In this document: positions 26,634 to 55,549 of the stretch, one piece after another
Layout of the letters: the number at the start of each line of letters is the position of its first letter
How positions within the stretch are numbered: position 1 is the stretch's first letter
IMG/VR virus record: IMGVR_UViG_3300031371_000002
Coordinates: 1 to 64,000 of that record
DNA from: a virus
Direction: 5' to 3' (one strand)
DNA: 64,000 bases
Position numbers and translations under genes: made by a program
Notes under the pieces: generated by a model
Databases searched by the model: none
Seen by the model: only the letters and a program-made list of their open reading frames with translations
What the model was told of the DNA's origin: nothing

Positions 26634-27929
26634 TTATACTGTACGAGTAAGGTTGATGTTGATACCGGCAATTGCATACTTGTGGGAAGTATCAACTGTA
26701 CCAGCAGAATCAGGTCGGTCATACTTACCATTGAAGCCGAATCGTGCAGAAGTGTACCATTCGATTGTCTGATTAGAAGGCTCACGCTTCATTTCAGTAA
26801 TAATACTTCCAGATTTAGCGTAACTTATGAACATGGACTTGTTGAACATGATCATAGAACCAAGAGTATTTGCGCTACCAGATGTACCATCACCAACTGT
26901 ACCATCAGCTTGTACCAGAGAAGGCATATAGCTGGAAATAACAACAGGGATTCCACCGATTGTATTAACAGCGCCCATTCCAGCAAGAGTAGAAGGCATA
27001 CCAGATTTAGAAGCATCTGTATAGTCAGCCATCAGTCTGAGACGGTTGTAAAGGTTCTGAGTGACCATCAGGACAACATTACCTTGTGCAACTTGGTTAG
27101 CATCAAGATATTTACCACCAGCTTCTTGCATAGCAAGGATATAAGTGAACAGAGCAGCATCAGTCAGAGCAGCACCACCAAAGTCAACAGTATCTTTACT
27201 CAGTGCAATTCTACGAAGACCTTTCCAAGACTTCTGAGTTGAAGTTGTACCAGAGAATGCATCCCCATAGTAGTCAACATCATCCATATGTGTTGCAGTG
27301 TTATCACCACTGATGATGGCAAGCTCAGTACCAACAGCCATACCACGTCTAAGGTCAGCCATTTTCTCAGCAGCAACATCAATAAGACTGTCAGCAAGGG
27401 TTTCATAAGAAGCACCAGTTGTACCGAAAATCTTATCAAGCTCATATCTCATCAGAGTATAGCTAGAGTTACTTTGTGTACCAGTATCGCCTTCAGCAAC
27501 ACGATATACTTTCAGCTTGTCGTTTTCAAGGATATCATGAACTCCACCCTCTTGAACTTCTTTATAGTTGATTAGTCTGGAGACATTTGTTTCTTCCCAG
27601 ATATCACGCTCAACCATACCGGAGGTAGGTCCAGTTGCAAAAGTATCATCAAGAGCAGCATCAGTTGTAAGGCTTACCGCTTTCATACCTTTGATTTTTG
27701 CATCAATAGCATCACGGTCTGCACCAGTAAGCTCGTGACCTTTAGCAGCACGAAGCTGTTTCATCATACCAACAAGACCAAGTACTTCTCTCTCCTCTTT
27801 ACTTGCAAACTTAGGATTAAAATCTTTCTTATTCACTACAGGTTCCTTTGGAGCCTTTGTTTCAGGCATTTTTGCTTCTTTAGCTTTTTCGGCAACTTTC
27901 TGTGCCATTTCTTTGATTAGTTTACTCAT
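26634..27929 (-). CDS. major capsid protein (HK97 fold)
   Basis: 431 aa. An N-terminal helical, Lys/Glu-rich delta-like domain (residues 1-70) precedes the core, which contains YKEVQEGGVHDILEN, VAEGDTGTQSNSSY and the long spine helix ALTDAALFTYILAMQEAGG. The fold order and length (about 430 with delta domain) fit HK97-type capsids. It follows the prohead protease with an ATGA overlap and is followed by the downstream hairpin. It is the best-supported structural gene after the terminase. Confidence 0.85.
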   Translation of the reverse strand: MSKLIKEMAQKVAEKAKEAKMPETKAPKEPVVNKKDFNPKFASKEEREVLGLVGMMKQLRAAKGHELTGADRDAIDAKIKGMKAVSLTTDAALDDTFATGPTSGMVERDIWEETNVSRLINYKEVQEGGVHDILENDKLKVYRVAEGDTGTQSNSSYTLMRYELDKIFGTTGASYETLADSLIDVAAEKMADLRRGMAVGTELAIISGDNTATHMDDVDYYGDAFSGTTSTQKSWKGLRRIALSKDTVDFGGAALTDAALFTYILAMQEAGGKYLDANQVAQGNVVLMVTQNLYNRLRLMADYTDASKSGMPSTLAGMGAVNTIGGIPVVISSYMPSLVQADGTVGDGTSGSANTLGSMIMFNKSMFISYAKSGSIITEMKREPSNQTIEWYTSARFGFNGKYDRPDSAGTVDTSHKYAIAGININLTRTV

Positions 27930-40916: not shown

Positions 40917-43046
40917 GTGAGTATTCATGTAAAAAAGAAAAATGGCACATTTGAAGCCTTAGATATTAGTAAGATAAAGAAACAGACTATGAAATCTTGT
41001 GAAGGTCTTACTAACGTAAGTGCTGATGAGCTAGAGCTGGATTCAAATATTCAATTTACGGATGGAATGTCAACAGAGGATATTCAAAAGACTCTGATTG
41101 ATACAGCAGCATCTAAGATTGATATTGATAGACCTGATTGGTCTTTTGTAGCTGCAAGACTTTTTATGTATGATTTGTACAAGAGTATTTGTGCTCTTTA
41201 TGGAAAGGATTGTCAAGGAAATCCTTATGAAACTATTTCACTAAGGGAGTATATTCAATTTGGAGTTGATCAAGATAGATTTAGAAAAGAGCTTCTAGAC
41301 TTTGACCTAGAAAACATCCAAGAGAGTATTAATCCTGAAAACGATAAACTATTCAACTACCTTGGAGCAGTGACTCTTGTAGATAAATATTTGATCAGAG
41401 CTAGAAACTCAGATTATACTTTTGAATTGCCCCAATATATGCTTATGGCAAATGCTATGTCTTTTGCTTTGGTTGAGAAAGATAAAGAATATTGGGCAAA
41501 GGAGTTTTATCAGATTATGTCTGATCAAGAGTTCATTACGGGAACTCCATCAATCTCTAATGGAAGACTGAAAGACAAAAGCTGTTTCAGTTGTTTTGTT
41601 GGTACAACTCCAGATAGCCTTGATGGTATTTTTGATAGCTATAAAGAAATGGCTTTTATTAGTAAATTTGGAGGAGGCATCGGTTGGGATTGGTCTCGTA
41701 TTCGTGCTGGAGGGGGCCCTATTGATGGGCATAAAGGGGCAGCAGGAGGTAAAGTTCCATTCTTGAGAATTGTTAATGATATTGCTCTTGCAGTAGATCA
41801 ACTAGGTGTTAGAAAAGGAGCAATTAAAGTCTATATTGAATCTTGGGATTTAGAAGTCCTTGATTTTATTGATCTTAAAAAACAGTCTGGTGAGATTAGA
41901 CGAAGAGCACATGACTTATTTACTGCTGTATCATGTTCTGACCTATTTATGCAACGTGCAGAGAATGAGGAGATGTGGACATTATTTGATCCATATGATG
42001 TTGCTGACCTTTGCGAGACTTTTGGAGATGAGTTTGAATCTAAATATCTTGCATATGAAGAACTTGCCAATAAAGGTAAAATTAGAAGTACCAAAATCAA
42101 TGCTAAGGATTTGTGGAAAAAGATTATCCTGAGTTATTATGAAACAGGTTCTCCTGATCTGTTCTTTAAAGATCATACAAATAATGGTCATATGAATAAG
42201 CATCTTGGGATTATTCGCTCAGGAAATCTATGCAGTGAGTACATGGCTCCTACCGATGAAGAGCATACAGCGGTATGTAACTTAGGCAGTATTAATCTAG
42301 CAAAAGTTAATACTAGAAATGACCTTGCAAGAGTTGTTCCTATTGCGGTACGACTTCTTGATAATATTATTGATATTTCTGGCTACCCTTCAGAAAAAGC
42401 TAAAAGAACACAAATGGAAAGACGTTCTATTGGTTTGGGCATTATGGGTGAGGCTGAAATGATTGCAACTAAACTGATTAAGTTTGGAAGTGCTGAACAT
42501 GAATCTATGATTCACGAAGTGTATGGAGCACTTAGAGAAATTTCAGAAATAACTTCTATGTCTTTGGCAGATGAGAAGGGAACTTACCCAATGTGGGAAG
42601 GTTCTGAATGGGGGAAACAAGGTAAGAAAATGCGAAATGCGTATCTTCTTTGTATCGCACCTACTAGCTCTATTTCTATTTTGTTTGGGACAACTCAATC
42701 TATTGAGCCTGTTTACAAGAGGAAATGGTTTGAAGAGAATCTAAGTGGATTGATTCCTGTAGTTGCTCCAAATATTAATGCTGAAAATTACCAGTATTAT
42801 GAGAGTGTCTATGATGTGGATCAAATGAGAATGGTTGAGCTTACAGGTATTAGACAGAAATATATTGACATGGCAATTAGTCATAACATTTTCCTTGACC
42901 CTAAAACCGTTACAGGAAAACAGATTAATGATATTCTGATGTACTCTTGGAAGAAGGGTATGAAAAGCACTTACTATCTGAGAAGCAAGAGCTACGAAAA
43001 AGAAGAAGTCAACCAAGATAAAATCTTGTGTGAGGGCTGTCAATGA
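40917..43046 (+). CDS. nrdA: class I ribonucleotide reductase, alpha subunit
   Basis: 709 aa, GTG start with AAGGAGAATAGTA. An ATP-cone-like N-terminus (about 1-90) precedes the barrel. Conserved are SCFSC (about 220), FGGGIGWDWSRIR, NLCSEYM...CNLGSINLAKV and APTSSISILFGTTQSIEP. The C-terminal CEGCQ carries the swinging dithiol pair for re-reduction. It reduces ribonucleoside diphosphates to dNDPs with the NrdB radical subunit encoded next. Confidence 0.95.
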   Translation: MSIHVKKKNGTFEALDISKIKKQTMKSCEGLTNVSADELELDSNIQFTDGMSTEDIQKTLIDTAASKIDIDRPDWSFVAARLFMYDLYKSICALYGKDCQGNPYETISLREYIQFGVDQDRFRKELLDFDLENIQESINPENDKLFNYLGAVTLVDKYLIRARNSDYTFELPQYMLMANAMSFALVEKDKEYWAKEFYQIMSDQEFITGTPSISNGRLKDKSCFSCFVGTTPDSLDGIFDSYKEMAFISKFGGGIGWDWSRIRAGGGPIDGHKGAAGGKVPFLRIVNDIALAVDQLGVRKGAIKVYIESWDLEVLDFIDLKKQSGEIRRRAHDLFTAVSCSDLFMQRAENEEMWTLFDPYDVADLCETFGDEFESKYLAYEELANKGKIRSTKINAKDLWKKIILSYYETGSPDLFFKDHTNNGHMNKHLGIIRSGNLCSEYMAPTDEEHTAVCNLGSINLAKVNTRNDLARVVPIAVRLLDNIIDISGYPSEKAKRTQMERRSIGLGIMGEAEMIATKLIKFGSAEHESMIHEVYGALREISEITSMSLADEKGTYPMWEGSEWGKQGKKMRNAYLLCIAPTSSISILFGTTQSIEPVYKRKWFEENLSGLIPVVAPNINAENYQYYESVYDVDQMRMVELTGIRQKYIDMAISHNIFLDPKTVTGKQINDILMYSWKKGMKSTYYLRSKSYEKEEVNQDKILCEGCQ

Positions 43047-44062
43047 ACCGTAAAAAAGTATATAATCCTGAATCAACCGAAAAGATTGATCAGGCAATGG
43101 TGTTTGGGGGGAGTCCCTCCGGCATCATTAATTCAACAAAGCCTACAAACAAAAAAGCTTTAGAACTTTATATTGGAATGCTGAATAATACTTGGTTTCC
43201 TGAAGAGGCAGATACTAGTCGGGATAAAGTCCCATATGCCAGTCTGTCAGAATATGAAAAGAGAATGTTTGACTTAGCTCTGGCTCAACTTATCTTTAAT
43301 GATAGCGAGCAGACAAATAATCTTATGGATAATATCAATCCTTATGTTACTGATCCTATCTACAATGTATGTTTGGCTAGACAGGCATTTGAAGAAGGTC
43401 TGCATTCCTTCTCCTATGGGGTTATGGTAGAAGATTTATCCGTAAATACCGATGCTATTTATGAGATGTATAAAACTGATCCCGTACTTAGGGAGAAGAA
43501 TGATGCTATCGCTAATATGTATGCTGAACTTGCAGATGACCCCTCAGAGGAGGAGAAAGCACTAGCTCTTGTTGCAAATAATATACTTGAAGGAATTCCT
43601 TTCTTTGGGGGGTTTGCTGCTATCTGGTCACTTGGACATAAAATGCTTGGATCAGCAACGATGGTTAAGTTTATTGCAAGAGATGAAAATGGAACACACC
43701 TTCCTCTATTTGGTATGATGTTTCAGGATAATCTGAAACAAAGACCTTATCTAAATACTGAGCAATTGAGGTCTAAAATTTACGATAAGGTAGATAAATT
43801 TGTAAATCTTGAGATTAAGTGGACAAAGTATATTACAGGTGGTAATATTTTAGGGTTCTCAGATAGCTCAATTGAGAGATATATTCAGTATCGTGGAGAT
43901 GTTGTATTAGATAATCTAGGATATGAGAGGAGATATTTCCCCGAGTATAGTCCTCTGATTGACCTTGAAAAGAAATATATTGACTTTAATGCTCATAGAA
44001 CCAACTTCTTTGAGGGGAATGTGACTAATTACTCAAAAGGTGGATTAGATATGAGTTTTTAA
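43043..44062 (+). CDS. nrdB: class I ribonucleotide reductase, beta subunit
   Basis: 339 aa, ATGA overlap with nrdA. Iron ligands appear in the usual helices (FNDSEQTNNL; FEEGLHSFSYG; NILEGIPFFGGFAAIW). The C-terminus GGLDMSF supplies the tail that docks on NrdA. The gene's end holds a promoter for the next operon segment. Confidence 0.92.
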   Translation: MNRKKVYNPESTEKIDQAMVFGGSPSGIINSTKPTNKKALELYIGMLNNTWFPEEADTSRDKVPYASLSEYEKRMFDLALAQLIFNDSEQTNNLMDNINPYVTDPIYNVCLARQAFEEGLHSFSYGVMVEDLSVNTDAIYEMYKTDPVLREKNDAIANMYAELADDPSEEEKALALVANNILEGIPFFGGFAAIWSLGHKMLGSATMVKFIARDENGTHLPLFGMMFQDNLKQRPYLNTEQLRSKIYDKVDKFVNLEIKWTKYITGGNILGFSDSSIERYIQYRGDVVLDNLGYERRYFPEYSPLIDLEKKYIDFNAHRTNFFEGNVTNYSKGGLDMSF

Positions 44063-44111: not shown

Positions 44112-44801
44112 ATGAATAAACCTATTTTCTTTTTGCACATCACTAAAACAGGTGGGCAAACAATTGAGGAGCTTTTGAGGAGAAATTACTCTAAGGTTTT
44201 TCAATTTGGACATGATGAAGATTATAAAAGTCTTCCTCAAGGACATGAGGTGTATATGGGTCAGACAGCACCCTATACGAGGGACTTGATTGAAGGGGAT
44301 GTTTTCTCCTTTGCTTTTGTTCGTGATCCTGTTGAAAGGCTCGTTTCTTTTTATAACTATTATAAAGTTCATAAATTTAGACGAGTTAGATGGATTCATG
44401 CTGATGGAACTCATGAAGAGTATCCAATTGATTCAAGTCTTCCTTTGATTGAGTTCTTTGAACAAGAGCCTATTAAGAAAGTTTGTTTCAATCGTATGGC
44501 GAGGGATTTTGGAGCTGAGGAACCCCTATTCGATTTATCCAACAGCAACTTATCCTATGATAAATACGATTACTTTATGTCTAAAATAGATTCCTATGAT
44601 TTTATTGGTATCTTTGAGGAGTTTGATGAAAGCCTTTCTAGACTTGGAAAAATCTTAGGGAAAGATTTTGAAAAGATACATGTAAACAGGGTTAAGAAAG
44701 AAAAAGAAGTTGTTACAGAGGCAGAATATGAATATCTAGAGTATTATACAGCATATGATGAAGCTATATATGAATACTGTCTGAAGAAGTTTCACAAATG
44801 A
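44112..44801 (+). CDS. sulfotransferase (Sulfotransfer_2-like)
   Basis: FFLHITKTGGQTIEELL (6-22) is the 5'-phosphosulfate-binding loop, and FSFAFVRDPVERLVSFY (about 68-84) is the 3'-phosphate motif for PAPS. 229 aa fits. The enzyme would move sulfate from PAPS to a carbohydrate or protein. Phage sulfotransferases are uncommon; the target could be host surface glycans or a virion glycan. It has its own promoter and is coupled to the next gene. Confidence 0.8.
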   Translation: MNKPIFFLHITKTGGQTIEELLRRNYSKVFQFGHDEDYKSLPQGHEVYMGQTAPYTRDLIEGDVFSFAFVRDPVERLVSFYNYYKVHKFRRVRWIHADGTHEEYPIDSSLPLIEFFEQEPIKKVCFNRMARDFGAEEPLFDLSNSNLSYDKYDYFMSKIDSYDFIGIFEEFDESLSRLGKILGKDFEKIHVNRVKKEKEVVTEAEYEYLEYYTAYDEAIYEYCLKKFHK

Positions 44802-47781: not shown

Positions 47782-47965
47782 AAATCACCCAAGAAAAAAG
47801 TTCATTACAGAACATTGGGAAGAGATGACTGATAAAGAGATGTATGAAGCAATGCTTGGAACAACTGCTGAAGCTCCTTCTGAAACTGCTGTAACAAGAT
47901 ATCGTCAAAGACTTGGGTTTTTAAGAGATAAAGAAATGATTTATAGAATGAGGGATAAGAAATGA
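47768..47965 (+). CDS. small HTH-like protein, 65 aa
   Basis: GTG start with AGGAGG upstream. The sequence (KFITEHWEEMTDKEMYEAML...ETAVTRYRQRLGF) resembles a phage HTH that begins WxxxTDxE. ATGA overlap with the next gene. Confidence 0.55.
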   Translation: MPNNENHPRKKFITEHWEEMTDKEMYEAMLGTTAEAPSETAVTRYRQRLGFLRDKEMIYRMRDKK

Positions 47966-48156
47966 TTGTAGAATTTAACGGATGGCATATTGATCTATCA
48001 AAAGTATCTGCTGTAAGCCCAGTTCAAGCTAACTACTCTTTCAATATCCATGAATCAGTAGTTATTACATTGGAGTTTGCTTCACAAGAAGAAGCAGATA
48101 CGGCTAGATCACAGTTTATTACTTTATGGCAAAGACCAAATAGGATGACTCAATGA
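47962..48156 (+). CDS. hypothetical protein, 64 aa
   Basis: ATGA-coupled at both ends. Two beta stretches (MIVEFNGWHIDLSKVSAVSP) and a helix (EEADTARSQFITLW). Looks like a small structured adaptor; no family recognised. Confidence 0.6.
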   Translation: MIVEFNGWHIDLSKVSAVSPVQANYSFNIHESVVITLEFASQEEADTARSQFITLWQRPNRMTQ

Positions 48157-48356
48157 TTATTCAATATCAAGACCCTTCCTTGGATATCCTAGAAGAAGGA
48201 GACATTGTTTATGATTTTTTAAATAAAAGGCAATTTACTATTTCAGGTAAAACTGCCCACTATGTTTCTCTAGAGGAAAGTAAATTTTGTAGACTTGCAA
48301 CTGATAATAAATTGGTAGGATGTGTACTCATCAGAAAAGTAGATATTGATATTTAG
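48153..48356 (+). CDS. hypothetical protein, 67 aa
   Basis: ATGA overlap with its neighbour. Beta-rich (LDILEEGDIVYDFLNKRQFT...KFCRLATDNKLVGCVLIRKV), like a small beta-barrel or KOW-like unit. It is the last gene before the structured RNA. Confidence 0.55.
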   Translation: MIIQYQDPSLDILEEGDIVYDFLNKRQFTISGKTAHYVSLEESKFCRLATDNKLVGCVLIRKVDIDI

Positions 48357-48382
48357 TGAATTTTGGTGAAATTGATACAACC

Positions 48383-48416
48383 TTTAAGAAAAAATTAAGT
48401 TATAAAAGGATATACT
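48383..48416 (+). promoter_or_regulatory. host-type promoter for the structured RNA
   Basis: TTTAAG (48383-48388), 5 bases, ATTAAG (48394-48399), 11 bases, TATACT (48411-48416). Exact class geometry and no ORF until 49107, so the product is expected to be an RNA starting near 48424. Confidence 0.8.
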
Positions 48417-48419
48417 TCT

Positions 48420-49080
48420 TATATAACTTCTCGCACATCTGCACGCAGACCGCCGAAAGGCAACATATATGGCTGGGTGTATTAAGGATGCAAAATGCGG
48501 GACATATCGTATGAATATACAAAAAGCAACAATTCGCTACAGAATGGGTATTTCTAGAGTACTTAATGTTGTAACAAAGATTCATACCAGTACGCCTCTG
48601 GCTTGTTTAATGTCAGAGGTCTACTTCCAATATCCTTCGGGACTACTCATATGAGGATATCGTGCCTAAGAGAATGAGCCAAAATCATTTCAGGTTTAAG
48701 CTGTTGTGCCTTTAAACAAGGTGTGGGTGGCTGGAAAGTCATAAGCCGTATCACCAAGACAGAGAGAAGAGCCTCACCTTCTCACATGAGGCGAAATTCC
48801 TTTTCATAAAATCCTATTGACGAATAGGTGCTCATTCCTCAGTATGCAGATAACGCTTAGGGAATGTTACACGGCTGGCCTCTCAATGTACGCTAGTCTT
48901 CTTTGAGTTGTGAAGTAGGATTACAGCACCTTCCTCCGGGAAACCCTTTATGGTTTAAAATGAGGCTACCCTACTTCCACTATCTATCCTCCTTGGTAGA
49001 ATATAGGTGAGCTTTTATAGCTTTGGTAAAGTTTGATTGATATGGTTGATTGGAGAATGTTTAGGGATAGGCATTCTCTT
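48420..49080 (+). ncRNA. large structured noncoding RNA (GOLLD/ROOL-like candidate)
   Basis: About 650 nt of unusually GC-rich sequence without a coding frame, with a promoter at its 5' end. Visible local hairpins: GCC-GAAA-GGC near 48450; CCTCTGGC with GTCAGAGG (48595-48621); UNCG loop TCC-TTCG-GGA within ATATCC/GGATAT (48630-48660); GTTTAA/TTAAAC (48693-48716); GCCTCA/TGAGGC (48771-48792); CCTATT-GACG-AATAGG (48813-48828); CATTCC/GGAATG (48833-48865); AAGTAGG/CCTACTT (48913-48976) with AAACC/GGTTT inside. Such length and ornate folding recall phage RNAs GOLLD and ROOL, but I cannot align it to either. It may be a multimeric RNA scaffold. Confidence 0.7.
49053..49078 (+). terminator. hairpin at the 3' end of the structured RNA
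   Basis: GAGAATG (49053-49059), 12-base loop, CATTCTC (49072-49078), then TTATGAG and TTATATTTTA. Not a clean U-tract, so it may be a 3' boundary or weak terminator rather than a strong one. Confidence 0.5.
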
Positions 49081-49106
49081 ATGAGTTATATTTTAAAAGG
49101 AAAGAT

Positions 49107-49328
49107 ATGTTTGATAAAGATTTTGATTTTATGGACTATTTTAATAACTTCATTGATGGAGAACTTGATAAGCGTTATCAAGAAGCAAAACGTAAAAGTA
49201 ACTTGACTTTATACAAAATGAAATCAGGTAGGTTTAAAATCATGGACTATTATAAGAATACTGTTTATGAATGTGATGATGTAGTTGTTGCAAAGAAGTA
49301 TTTTATTAAGATTACTATTGGAGAATAG
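49107..49328 (+). CDS. hypothetical protein, 73 aa
   Basis: First gene after the structured RNA; AAAGGAAAGAT site. MFDKDFDFMDYFNNFIDGEL is acidic and helical; KMKSGRFKIMDYY follows. No family recognised. Confidence 0.6.
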   Translation: MFDKDFDFMDYFNNFIDGELDKRYQEAKRKSNLTLYKMKSGRFKIMDYYKNTVYECDDVVVAKKYFIKITIGE

Positions 49329-49463
49329 ATGGAATTAGATTTCAAAAATGATTCATATTGTAAAATACTAATGTCTTTACTTATTATAGGTAAAATTGGA
49401 CCAAATGAATTTAGAGGTGATCTAGAAAAGTATGAGATATTTTTAAGAAGCTTAGGAAAATAA
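49329..49463 (+). CDS. hypothetical protein, 44 aa
   Basis: Starts directly after the previous stop and ends in the AGCTTAGGAAAATAA motif, so the GCTTAGG element codes its last residues (SLGK). A single hydrophobic patch (ILMSLLIIGKIG). Next gene overlaps its stop. Confidence 0.5.
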   Translation: MELDFKNDSYCKILMSLLIIGKIGPNEFRGDLEKYEIFLRSLGK

Positions 49464-52803: not shown

Positions 52804-52813
52804 TTTTTGTCGA

Positions 52814-52833
52814 GCTTAGGGAAAGACTATAAT
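52814..52833 (+). promoter_or_regulatory. GCTTAGG-N7-TATAAT promoter-like motif
   Basis: GCTTAGG (52814-52820), 7 bases, perfect TATAAT (52828-52833), just upstream of the frameshifted GNAT gene. It is the clearest example linking the motif to a -10 element. Confidence 0.6.
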
Positions 52834-52844
52834 AAAGGACACAT

Positions 52845-53125
52845 ATGATATATACAGATAAGAGAGAGAGTATGGAGAGATAGAATACTCAATAGAGGGT
52901 AGCACCATATACATACACTCATTTACTACTTATGATACATACAGGAGACAAGGTTATGGCACTAAACTTTATATAGAGTTGATTAGTAAATACCTATCTG
53001 TAAATACTAGTTTTGTTGAAATATTTAAACATAATATTGAAGGGGCTTCTTTTTTTGAAAGTCTTGGTTTTGAGTATTGTGTACAGGATGACTCTGATCA
53101 TATATTTATGGTAGATACTTTTTAA
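52845..53125 (+). pseudogene. GNAT acetyltransferase, frame broken at an (AG)5 tract (phase-variable candidate)
   Basis: The ATG at 52845 reads MIYTDKRE and then hits a stop after an AG repeat at 52861-52870. Removing one AG unit restores one open frame to 53125: MIYTDKREYGEIEYSIEGST then IYIHSFTTYDTYRRQGYGT, KLYIELI and FFESLGFEYCVQDD. RRQGYGTKL is the GNAT acetyl-CoA motif (R/QxxGxG/A) and FFESLGF is the usual final motif. The intact frame encodes about 92 aa. This is either a phase-variable switch in the OFF state, a decayed gene or a sequencing error. Confidence 0.7.
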
Positions 53126-53339
53126 TAGATGTAGGGTGAACATTATATCATATATGATGGTTTTTCTGAGAATTTTGCTTGAGTTGGTCTAGTAAAGAAT
53201 ATGGTGAACATTTAATTCATTGAAATTAGTATTTATTGTACCAACTCAAAAAAGCACTCTCTTAAATAACAATAACCCCCCCCATCCCTTTCAAATAAAA
53301 CTAATCTAAATAACAAGCTTCATATAAGACTATCTTAAC

Positions 53340-53354
53340 TGATAACTATTATCA
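53340..53354. promoter_or_regulatory. Fur-box-like palindrome 1
   Basis: TGATAACTATTATCA, a 7-1-7 palindrome with one mismatch. It resembles Fur repressor sites. A second similar site is at 55230-55244. Confidence 0.4.
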
Positions 53355-53499
53355 ATAACTAACCCCGCCAAATTTACAAAAATAAAATCTAATCCCGCAA
53401 TTAACCTTACTATCAAAGCTTCACATAATAGATCAACACATAACTTATAAGTCAATAAAATCCTTTATAATAACTACTCCATTGTTACCTATTTACTCA

Positions 53500-53560
53500 A
53501 ATCGTCTATATTAAACGATCTACCATAAAGTAATACCATTGTAAGCCTAATCATATAAAG
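53500..53560 (-). repeat. GATCGTTGA-family element, copy I
   Basis: On minus: GGTATTACTTTATGG then TAGATCGTTTA (core 53512-53522) followed by ATATAGACGATTTGA. The small stem TAC/GTA matches copy C with different loops. Confidence 0.65.
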
Positions 53561-53759
53561 TGCCTTAAATCAAGCGCTAGCTATGTTAAATAGCCGATAT
53601 AACTATACGAAACAATATCAATAATAAAAAGCTTAGAAAACTACCCATTTAATAATACTTTAAGAAACATTACACTATACACACATATACATATTATATA
53701 GCCTCAACTAAATAAGATAATAATACTCTCATTCTGTAATAATTCTTTTTAAAAAACCC

Positions 53760-53787
53760 TTGACACATAATCTGAATGTGGTATACT
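53760..53787 (+). promoter_or_regulatory. canonical sigma-70 promoter TTGACA-N16-TATACT
   Basis: TTGACA (53760-53765), 16 bases, TATACT (53782-53787). Unlike the TTTAAG class, it has a true -35. It precedes the 48-aa gene by 30 bp. Confidence 0.75.
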
Positions 53788-53816
53788 AACTCTATAACTT
53801 GAATAAAGGATAACAG

Positions 53817-53963
53817 ATGAAAGACTTTCTAATCAAAGAAACTTTAAAAGCATTACAGCAAGCAGAACAAACAAAAGCCTTTTTAAAAGACATTGAAAGA
53901 AAAACAAAACATCTTTGCCCTGTTGAAAGAGAATTAAGAAAACTTAAAGCTTTAAATAGCTAG
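53817..53963 (+). CDS. helical hypothetical protein, 48 aa
   Basis: AAAGGATAACAG then ATG; canonical promoter upstream. KDFLIKETLKALQQAEQTKA then FLKDIERKTKHLCPVEREL: an all-helical, charged protein. A strong stand-alone promoter suggests an early regulator or inhibitor. No family recognised. Confidence 0.6.
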   Translation: MKDFLIKETLKALQQAEQTKAFLKDIERKTKHLCPVERELRKLKALNS

Positions 53964-54050
53964 ACTAATCGAATAACTTTTTAGGGGGCTTTATAGTAAG
54001 TCTCTTATAAAGGTTATCTTAACCTTACACTTCATCTAAAGGAACTTATC

Positions 54051-54752: not shown

Positions 54753-54759
54753 GTAGTTT

Positions 54760-54797
54760 ACCCCATAGAGTAACTTTTTATTAAGATTCTATGGGGT
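54760..54797 (+). terminator. 10-bp stem hairpin after the 233-aa gene
   Basis: ACCCCATAGA pairs with TCTATGGGGT across an 18-base loop. It lies 8 bp past the stop. There is no U-run, so it is a structured 3' end rather than a certain terminator. Confidence 0.5.
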
Positions 54798-55229
54798 TAT
54801 ACTTCCAAAGGGGTAAATAATATTATAGAGCTTCTTTATAGGGGTTCTTAGTGTTATTTGATTTTGAAATGTATTGTAATAAGTGTTAGAAACTATATAA
54901 GATACTCGCTTAGGGTATCCTCTTTATGGTATCACTTGAACGGCTTATGTGGTAGATAGTTAATGAAACTCCGCTTAGGGGAAGTAGTTAAAAGGAAACT
55001 TTATGAAAGGTTAGTAAAGTAGGACACGCTAAAAAGCATTACATAGAGAGTTATTTAACCTTATGTTCTTTTAAAATGATTGTTGTATAAAATGTTCATC
55101 ATTAACCCGCTTAGGGTATGATACTTATAATAGTTTATATGATAGATATTGTCATTCCTGTTTAGTCTCTTTACATGATCGCTTAGGTTATGTTTATTAT
55201 AGAGGCGTTATTCTAAGGTAGATATAAAA

Positions 55230-55244
55230 TGATAATCGTTATCA
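55230..55244. promoter_or_regulatory. Fur-box-like palindrome 2
   Basis: TGATAATCGTTATCA, 7-1-7 palindrome with one mismatch, followed by ATAATAACCAAC as in site 1 (ATAACTAACC). The shared flank supports a duplicated regulatory site. Confidence 0.4.
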
Positions 55245-55549
55245 ATAATAACCAACTTAGAATAAAACAGATTCCTATAAAATACAATTATAGGACACTC
55301 TCCAACCATTAACACGGTAATAAGTTTCGATTAACGCTTATTTTATGGGGGAACTGGATTAAAGTTATTTCGGCATATTGCAGTCGATGAAGGGGATTAG
55401 AAGAAACTTCCCTATGCAATTGAGGTTATGTGTATCTATACCAAGAAAAGTAAATTAGATAAATTACAGCTTTATAGCTTTTTTGGGGCATTTTTCGGAA
55501 TGTCCTATAAAGAGTTAATTCTCTTAAATTATGTTTAAAGGATATACAA

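Follow-up and report, generated by a model that had tools for sequence, protein, structure and literature searches.

The 750 nt between the stop codon of the ORF at 48153-48356 and the ATG of the ORF at 49107-49328 (48357..49106, plus strand) may encode a large structured phage noncoding RNA of about 650-700 nt, a reading that is given somewhat better than even chances. The window, the whole stretch of DNA analysed, comprises 64,000 bases of an IMG/VR virus record that is 66,909 bases long. Its gene content is that of a tailed phage, with the genes for terminase, portal, head, tail and tape measure on the minus strand at ~8-34 kb; from ~36 kb on, the plus strand encodes ribonucleotide reductase, thymidylate synthase and dCMP deaminase, along with many small genes. 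A preliminary description had proposed a large noncoding RNA with its own promoter, either related to RNAs such as GOLLD and ROOL or a new class. For a gap that lacks a convincing gene and is GC-rich while its phage genome is AT-rich, an RNA is still the reading that fits best, with precedents detected by RNA-seq in phages ICP1 and K, but neither the promoter nor the family membership held up. What is observed is a gap in which no gene is convincing, an island of raised GC, a set of helices predicted with confidence, and a phage genome that contains no long antisense match to the region. Against the RNA reading stand the lack of any relative found, a weak fold signal from a single sequence, the absence of a consensus promoter and of a plus-strand terminator-like site, and a borderline small ORF.

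The gap sits in a block of tightly packed plus-strand genes, the others of which abut or overlap. It had been called ORF-poor, and each of the six frames indeed contains 12-16 stops between 48357 and 49106. When codon usage is scored with 35 clear genes as the training set, the mean best-frame value is -0.147 in the gap, compared with +0.142 in the upstream gene and +0.199 in the downstream gene; the genome's other gaps score -0.22 to -0.02, equally low. The sole frame with a borderline codon signal is a 61-aa ORF in the 5' third (48469..48654, plus strand), which scores 0.000 against a mean of -0.22 and a 90th percentile of -0.02 for spurious ORFs, placing it at about the 90th-92nd percentile. 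Preceded by AAAGG before its ATG and exceeding ~90% of spurious ORFs, it could be a missed small protein gene with untranslated flanks. However, each of the ten small genes tested in its neighbourhood scores higher (0.08-0.29), it has no family match, and ~450 nt belonging to the most GC-rich part would still lack an explanation, so that a missed gene is considered quite unlikely. Searches of Pfam and PHROG returned no credible family match for any open segment of the gap, this ORF included. With the borderline ORF set aside, the region is a gene-free gap of 500-1000 nt in a phage genome, a feature of large phage lncRNAs of the loose kind.

GC content is the firmest signal of the candidate locus. 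The region had been described as GC-rich, which is true for its own genome: the best 400-nt window reaches 0.4425 at 48581, and the early genome half has a mean of 0.326 (sd 0.032) and a 400-nt maximum of 0.3925 outside the gap. Both the 300-nt and the 400-nt window with the highest GC in the early half fall in the gap (0.45 and 0.44), ~3.6 standard deviations up; over the whole window, the peak is equalled by a head-gene window at 26961. A GC island of orphan sequence to which no function can be assigned could also be decayed or captured DNA, that is, a dead gene or a higher-GC foreign insert. Its open segments are nevertheless without credible Pfam or PHROG matches, its codon score is as low as that of the other gaps, useless DNA tends to be purged by phages, and well-defined helices are predicted on the transcribed strand. 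Decayed or foreign DNA is thus regarded as an improbable source of the region.

At the level of secondary structure, the at least eight hairpins described earlier correspond to about a dozen well-defined helices in the predicted plus-strand fold, several with a mean pair probability of about 0.9 or higher. A predicted 5' boundary hairpin of 12 bp (48398-410/416-428, loop UAUAC, mean pair probability 0.88) is followed by domain I (48429-451/471-502), in which three stacked helices with pair probabilities of 0.94-1.0 are capped by a GCC-GAAA-GGC hairpin at 48453-48462; the GNRA tetraloop noticed earlier is therefore retained. The accompanying UNCG tetraloop is present as sequence (CC-UUCG-GG) but absent from the best-supported fold. 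Domain II (48509..48587) would consist of a long helix, 48509-516/48580-587, with inner helices (0.85-0.93), and is followed by a 13-bp hairpin at 48589-602/612-625 with the loop UUGUUUAAU. The 3' domain (48745..49046) is predicted to be closed by a long-range helix, 48745-753/49038-046 (0.92), with sub-hairpins inside. Helices at 48814-818/823-827 and 48873-879/892-898, and an 8-bp helix pairing GAAGUAGG with CCUACUUC (48912-919/970-977), each have a mean pair probability of about 0.9 or higher. CUACUUC of the helix at 48912-48977 recurs at 48621, within a 14-nt repeat, CTACTTCCA[A/C]TATC. The boundary hairpin proposed earlier is also recovered, as a predicted 12-bp stem with a GGGA loop at the 3' end (49052-063/068-079); this stem and that of the 13-bp hairpin also have mean pair probabilities of about 0.9 or higher. 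Eight loop bases of the 13-bp hairpin, 48603-48610, are complementary to 48712-48719, and a pseudoknot between them is possible in the model; it was set aside as support for the fold, being equalled in 5 of 60 shuffles.

How far this fold exceeds chance was assessed by shuffling. For the plus strand of 48383-49100, RNAfold gives -198 kcal/mol, with z of -4.4 (20 shuffles) and -3.4 (40 shuffles) as against -0.9 and -0.3 for the minus strand, and this strand specificity was counted in favour of the RNA reading. Two of 40 shuffles fold as well as the region, and z falls to -1.2 when the flanks are trimmed to the GC-rich 650 nt (48431-49080). The genome's other 718-nt windows have a mean z of -0.9 (sd 1.3); the candidate's value is high and not unique, because values of -3.2 to -4.0 are also seen for a few windows of mRNA near 57 kb. 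In a genome scan of 120-nt windows, those inside the candidate are no more stable than elsewhere. The 92 confident pairs compare with 54+-29 for shuffled sequences, 5 of 40 of which do as well, and 195 pairs have p>0.5, a number that 4 of 40 shuffles reach. The fold signal, drawn from a single sequence, thus appears to exceed chance only modestly. A weak z is no argument against an RNA, since phage lncRNAs supported by RNA-seq score similarly: the same method gave -1.46 for phage K lnc001, -4.87 for lnc002 and -1.85 for ICP1, the lnc002 and ICP1 slices being the central 650 nt of the annotated span or gap and not the mapped transcript. An element acting as DNA, such as a replication origin or a packaging-related site, would also be gene-free and contain inverted repeats. 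No iterons were found in the region, however, the fold signal is strand-specific, and two other gaps, 52804-54050 and 54753-55549, are more origin-like (AT-rich, with repeats); a DNA-level role is very unlikely.

Transcription of the region was considered from its signals. An exact-geometry promoter had been reported upstream, but no plus-strand -35/-10 pair matching at least 9/12 positions at 16-18 nt spacing occurs in 47949-49358. The best pairs near the start match 9/12 with a 15-nt spacer and 8/12 at 16-18 nt, and promoter-like matches in the neighbourhood equal the shuffle expectation. Two -10-like boxes, TATAAA (48401) and TATACT (48411), could serve in a host with -35-independent promoters. 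Both fall within the 5' hairpin at 48398-48428, which would therefore not form in a transcript starting from either box. Terminator-like sites were found in the region on the minus strand only, and the 3' boundary hairpin is not an obvious intrinsic terminator because no U-tract follows 49079. The absence of a plus-strand terminator-like site, together with a region end only 7-20 nt upstream of the AAAGGA-ATG of ORF 49107, is compatible with a long structured leader, that is, a cis-regulatory 5' UTR acting on translation or transcription of the small-gene cluster from 49107. On the other hand, a phage leader of 700 nt would be very long, nothing among the riboswitches and leaders of Rfam matches above threshold, and the ribosome-binding site is not covered by the 3' boundary hairpin; a leader is accordingly thought doubtful.

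For a noncoding RNA, transcription, processing, accumulation and function are inferred, with read-through transcription and trimming as the simplest route. The candidate would probably be made by read-through of the early/middle gene block, with its ends trimmed at the two boundary hairpins or close to them, or it would start from an unrecognised promoter. It could then accumulate during infection as a free-standing structured RNA, like GOLLD, ROOL and the lncRNAs of ICP1 and phage K. Its action would depend on its fold, through self-assembly or the binding of a partner from host or phage, as opposed to antisense pairing. No complement of the candidate of at least 14 nt was found elsewhere in the window on either strand, which speaks against antisense action on phage genes there.

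Among known large RNAs, no Rfam family exceeds its gathering threshold in the window, where only chance-level hits (E 0.5-7) were obtained. The families suggested earlier fared no better: at E<=10, neither the ROOL model RF03087 (gathering 99.1 bits; whole record searched), nor the GOLLD model RF02032 (416 positions, gathering 150 bits, conserved 3' region), nor the OLE model RF01071 has a match, and membership in these families is not borne out. RF03087 likewise gave no match in 14 control genomes, and the group II intron model RF01998 has none here. ROOL, an RNA-only octameric nanocage, is like the candidate in size (574 model positions; 659 nt in env-120), in its phage location and in its many hairpins; GOLLD shares the size class and phage location, and OLE the size class. 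Islands of tRNA genes are common neighbours of ROOL and GOLLD (PMC12286853), whereas no tRNA gene, a frequent but not obligatory neighbour of ROOL, was found in the candidate's 64-kb window.

Closer likenesses are found in phages whose large RNAs were detected by RNA-seq. In the lytic Vibrio phage ICP1, a noncoding transcript of ~800 nt between gp139 and gp140 is the phage's most abundant by RNA-seq (PMC7567579); its locus resembles the candidate in being a large orf-less gap with no tRNA gene, no Rfam match, slightly raised GC and a similar fold z. Staphylococcus phage K lnc001 and lnc002, lncRNAs supported by RNA-seq (PMC9241854), are also large, lie in gene-free gaps and have no Rfam match except the adjacent tRNAs, but unlike the candidate they adjoin tRNA genes. 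None of these RNAs has sequence similarity to the candidate, which is known from sequence alone, in contrast to their RNA-seq support. By analogy, the nearest known kind is the loose group of orphan phage lncRNAs in gene-free gaps, and the candidate may work alike.

Relatives were sought widely. Comparison of the region by blastn with 50,697 phages and 72,556 plasmids gave chance matches only, and the phage's portal and one early protein had no matches among the same 50,697 phages. Nothing relevant was found in 397 Campylobacterota-class genomes, for which the queries were the DNA of the region, a structure model and the phage's portal protein, and no relatives of the region were found in 15 whole viral records, in loci from pattern scans and NrdA-guided searches, or anywhere in the ~4.2 Mb of loci retrieved. 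Two single-sequence covariance models run on 53 sources recovered only the candidate itself and chance hits. An exact 16-mer around the GAAA hairpin has nine matches in IMG/VR with dissimilar flanks, and a doubled CTACTTCCA pattern has many, none of which resembles the candidate region. A neighbouring protein, NrdA alone and terminase led to no close kin, loci from NrdA profile searches share neither gene neighbourhood nor RNA similarity, and an intergenic motif used as a probe gave one unrelated coding match. The genome sets are samples from which near-identical records may be missing, and an empty result without a positive control shows little; because no relative was found in them, the reading as a large phage noncoding RNA stays at the level of the plausible.

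The host is probably a Campylobacterota bacterium, as judged from sequence similarity, because NrdA is nearest, one viral contig aside, to that of Campylobacterota, and the C-terminus of the tape-measure protein resembles those of their phages. NrdA is 54% identical in profile searches to one viral contig (L019) and 46-49% identical to chromosomal Campylobacterota NrdA, and the tape-measure C-terminus is similar to those of Nitratiruptor and Campylobacter phages. NrdAB of the Campylobacterota type is encoded at 40917-44062, and L019 shares no other genes with the phage. Adjoining the ribonucleotide reductase genes, 44112-44801 encodes a protein matching a PHROG annotated as galactose-3-O-sulfotransferase.

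It could further be speculated, with clearly less confidence than for the RNA itself, that the region represents a new class of ornate phage RNA in an uncharted phage group, probably on Campylobacterota, which would fold, and perhaps also self-assemble, in the manner of ROOL and GOLLD without shared sequence. If transcribed, it would add to the large phage RNAs that have no sequence relationship with GOLLD and ROOL, in a phage group for which no cultured member was found. It would suggest that big RNAs have evolved in phages repeatedly and independently, and would provide a molecule of 650-720 nt for asking in vitro whether self-assembly is general among them.

Other features of the genome concern a repeated motif and two further gaps. 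The motif GCTTAGGG (extended form AGCTTAGGGAAAGATTATAAA) occurs in 22 exact copies, 1.05 being expected, with sites including 51148, 51513, 52016, 52814, 54908, 54973 and 55109 on the plus strand and 56587, 57305 and 58445 on the minus strand; one copy lies inside the candidate RNA, at 48854. Behind several intergenic plus-strand copies at 51-53 kb, a TATAAT-like box begins 14 nt after the motif start, an arrangement reminiscent of a middle-promoter box of phages. The motif also takes palindromic forms, CCTAAGCTTAGG, at ~52280, 55765 and 60513. The long gap at 52804-54050, which has no called ORF, is AT-rich with C-rich runs; read by eye, its first 320 nt are GNAT acetyltransferase-like with no start that could be used, and at ~53761 there is a sigma70-like promoter (TTGACA ... 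TATACT). The second large gap without a called ORF, 54753-55549, contains four clustered GCTTAGG copies, and the lowest local fold z among the sampled 120-nt windows, -5.9 on the minus strand, was obtained at 55201-55320.
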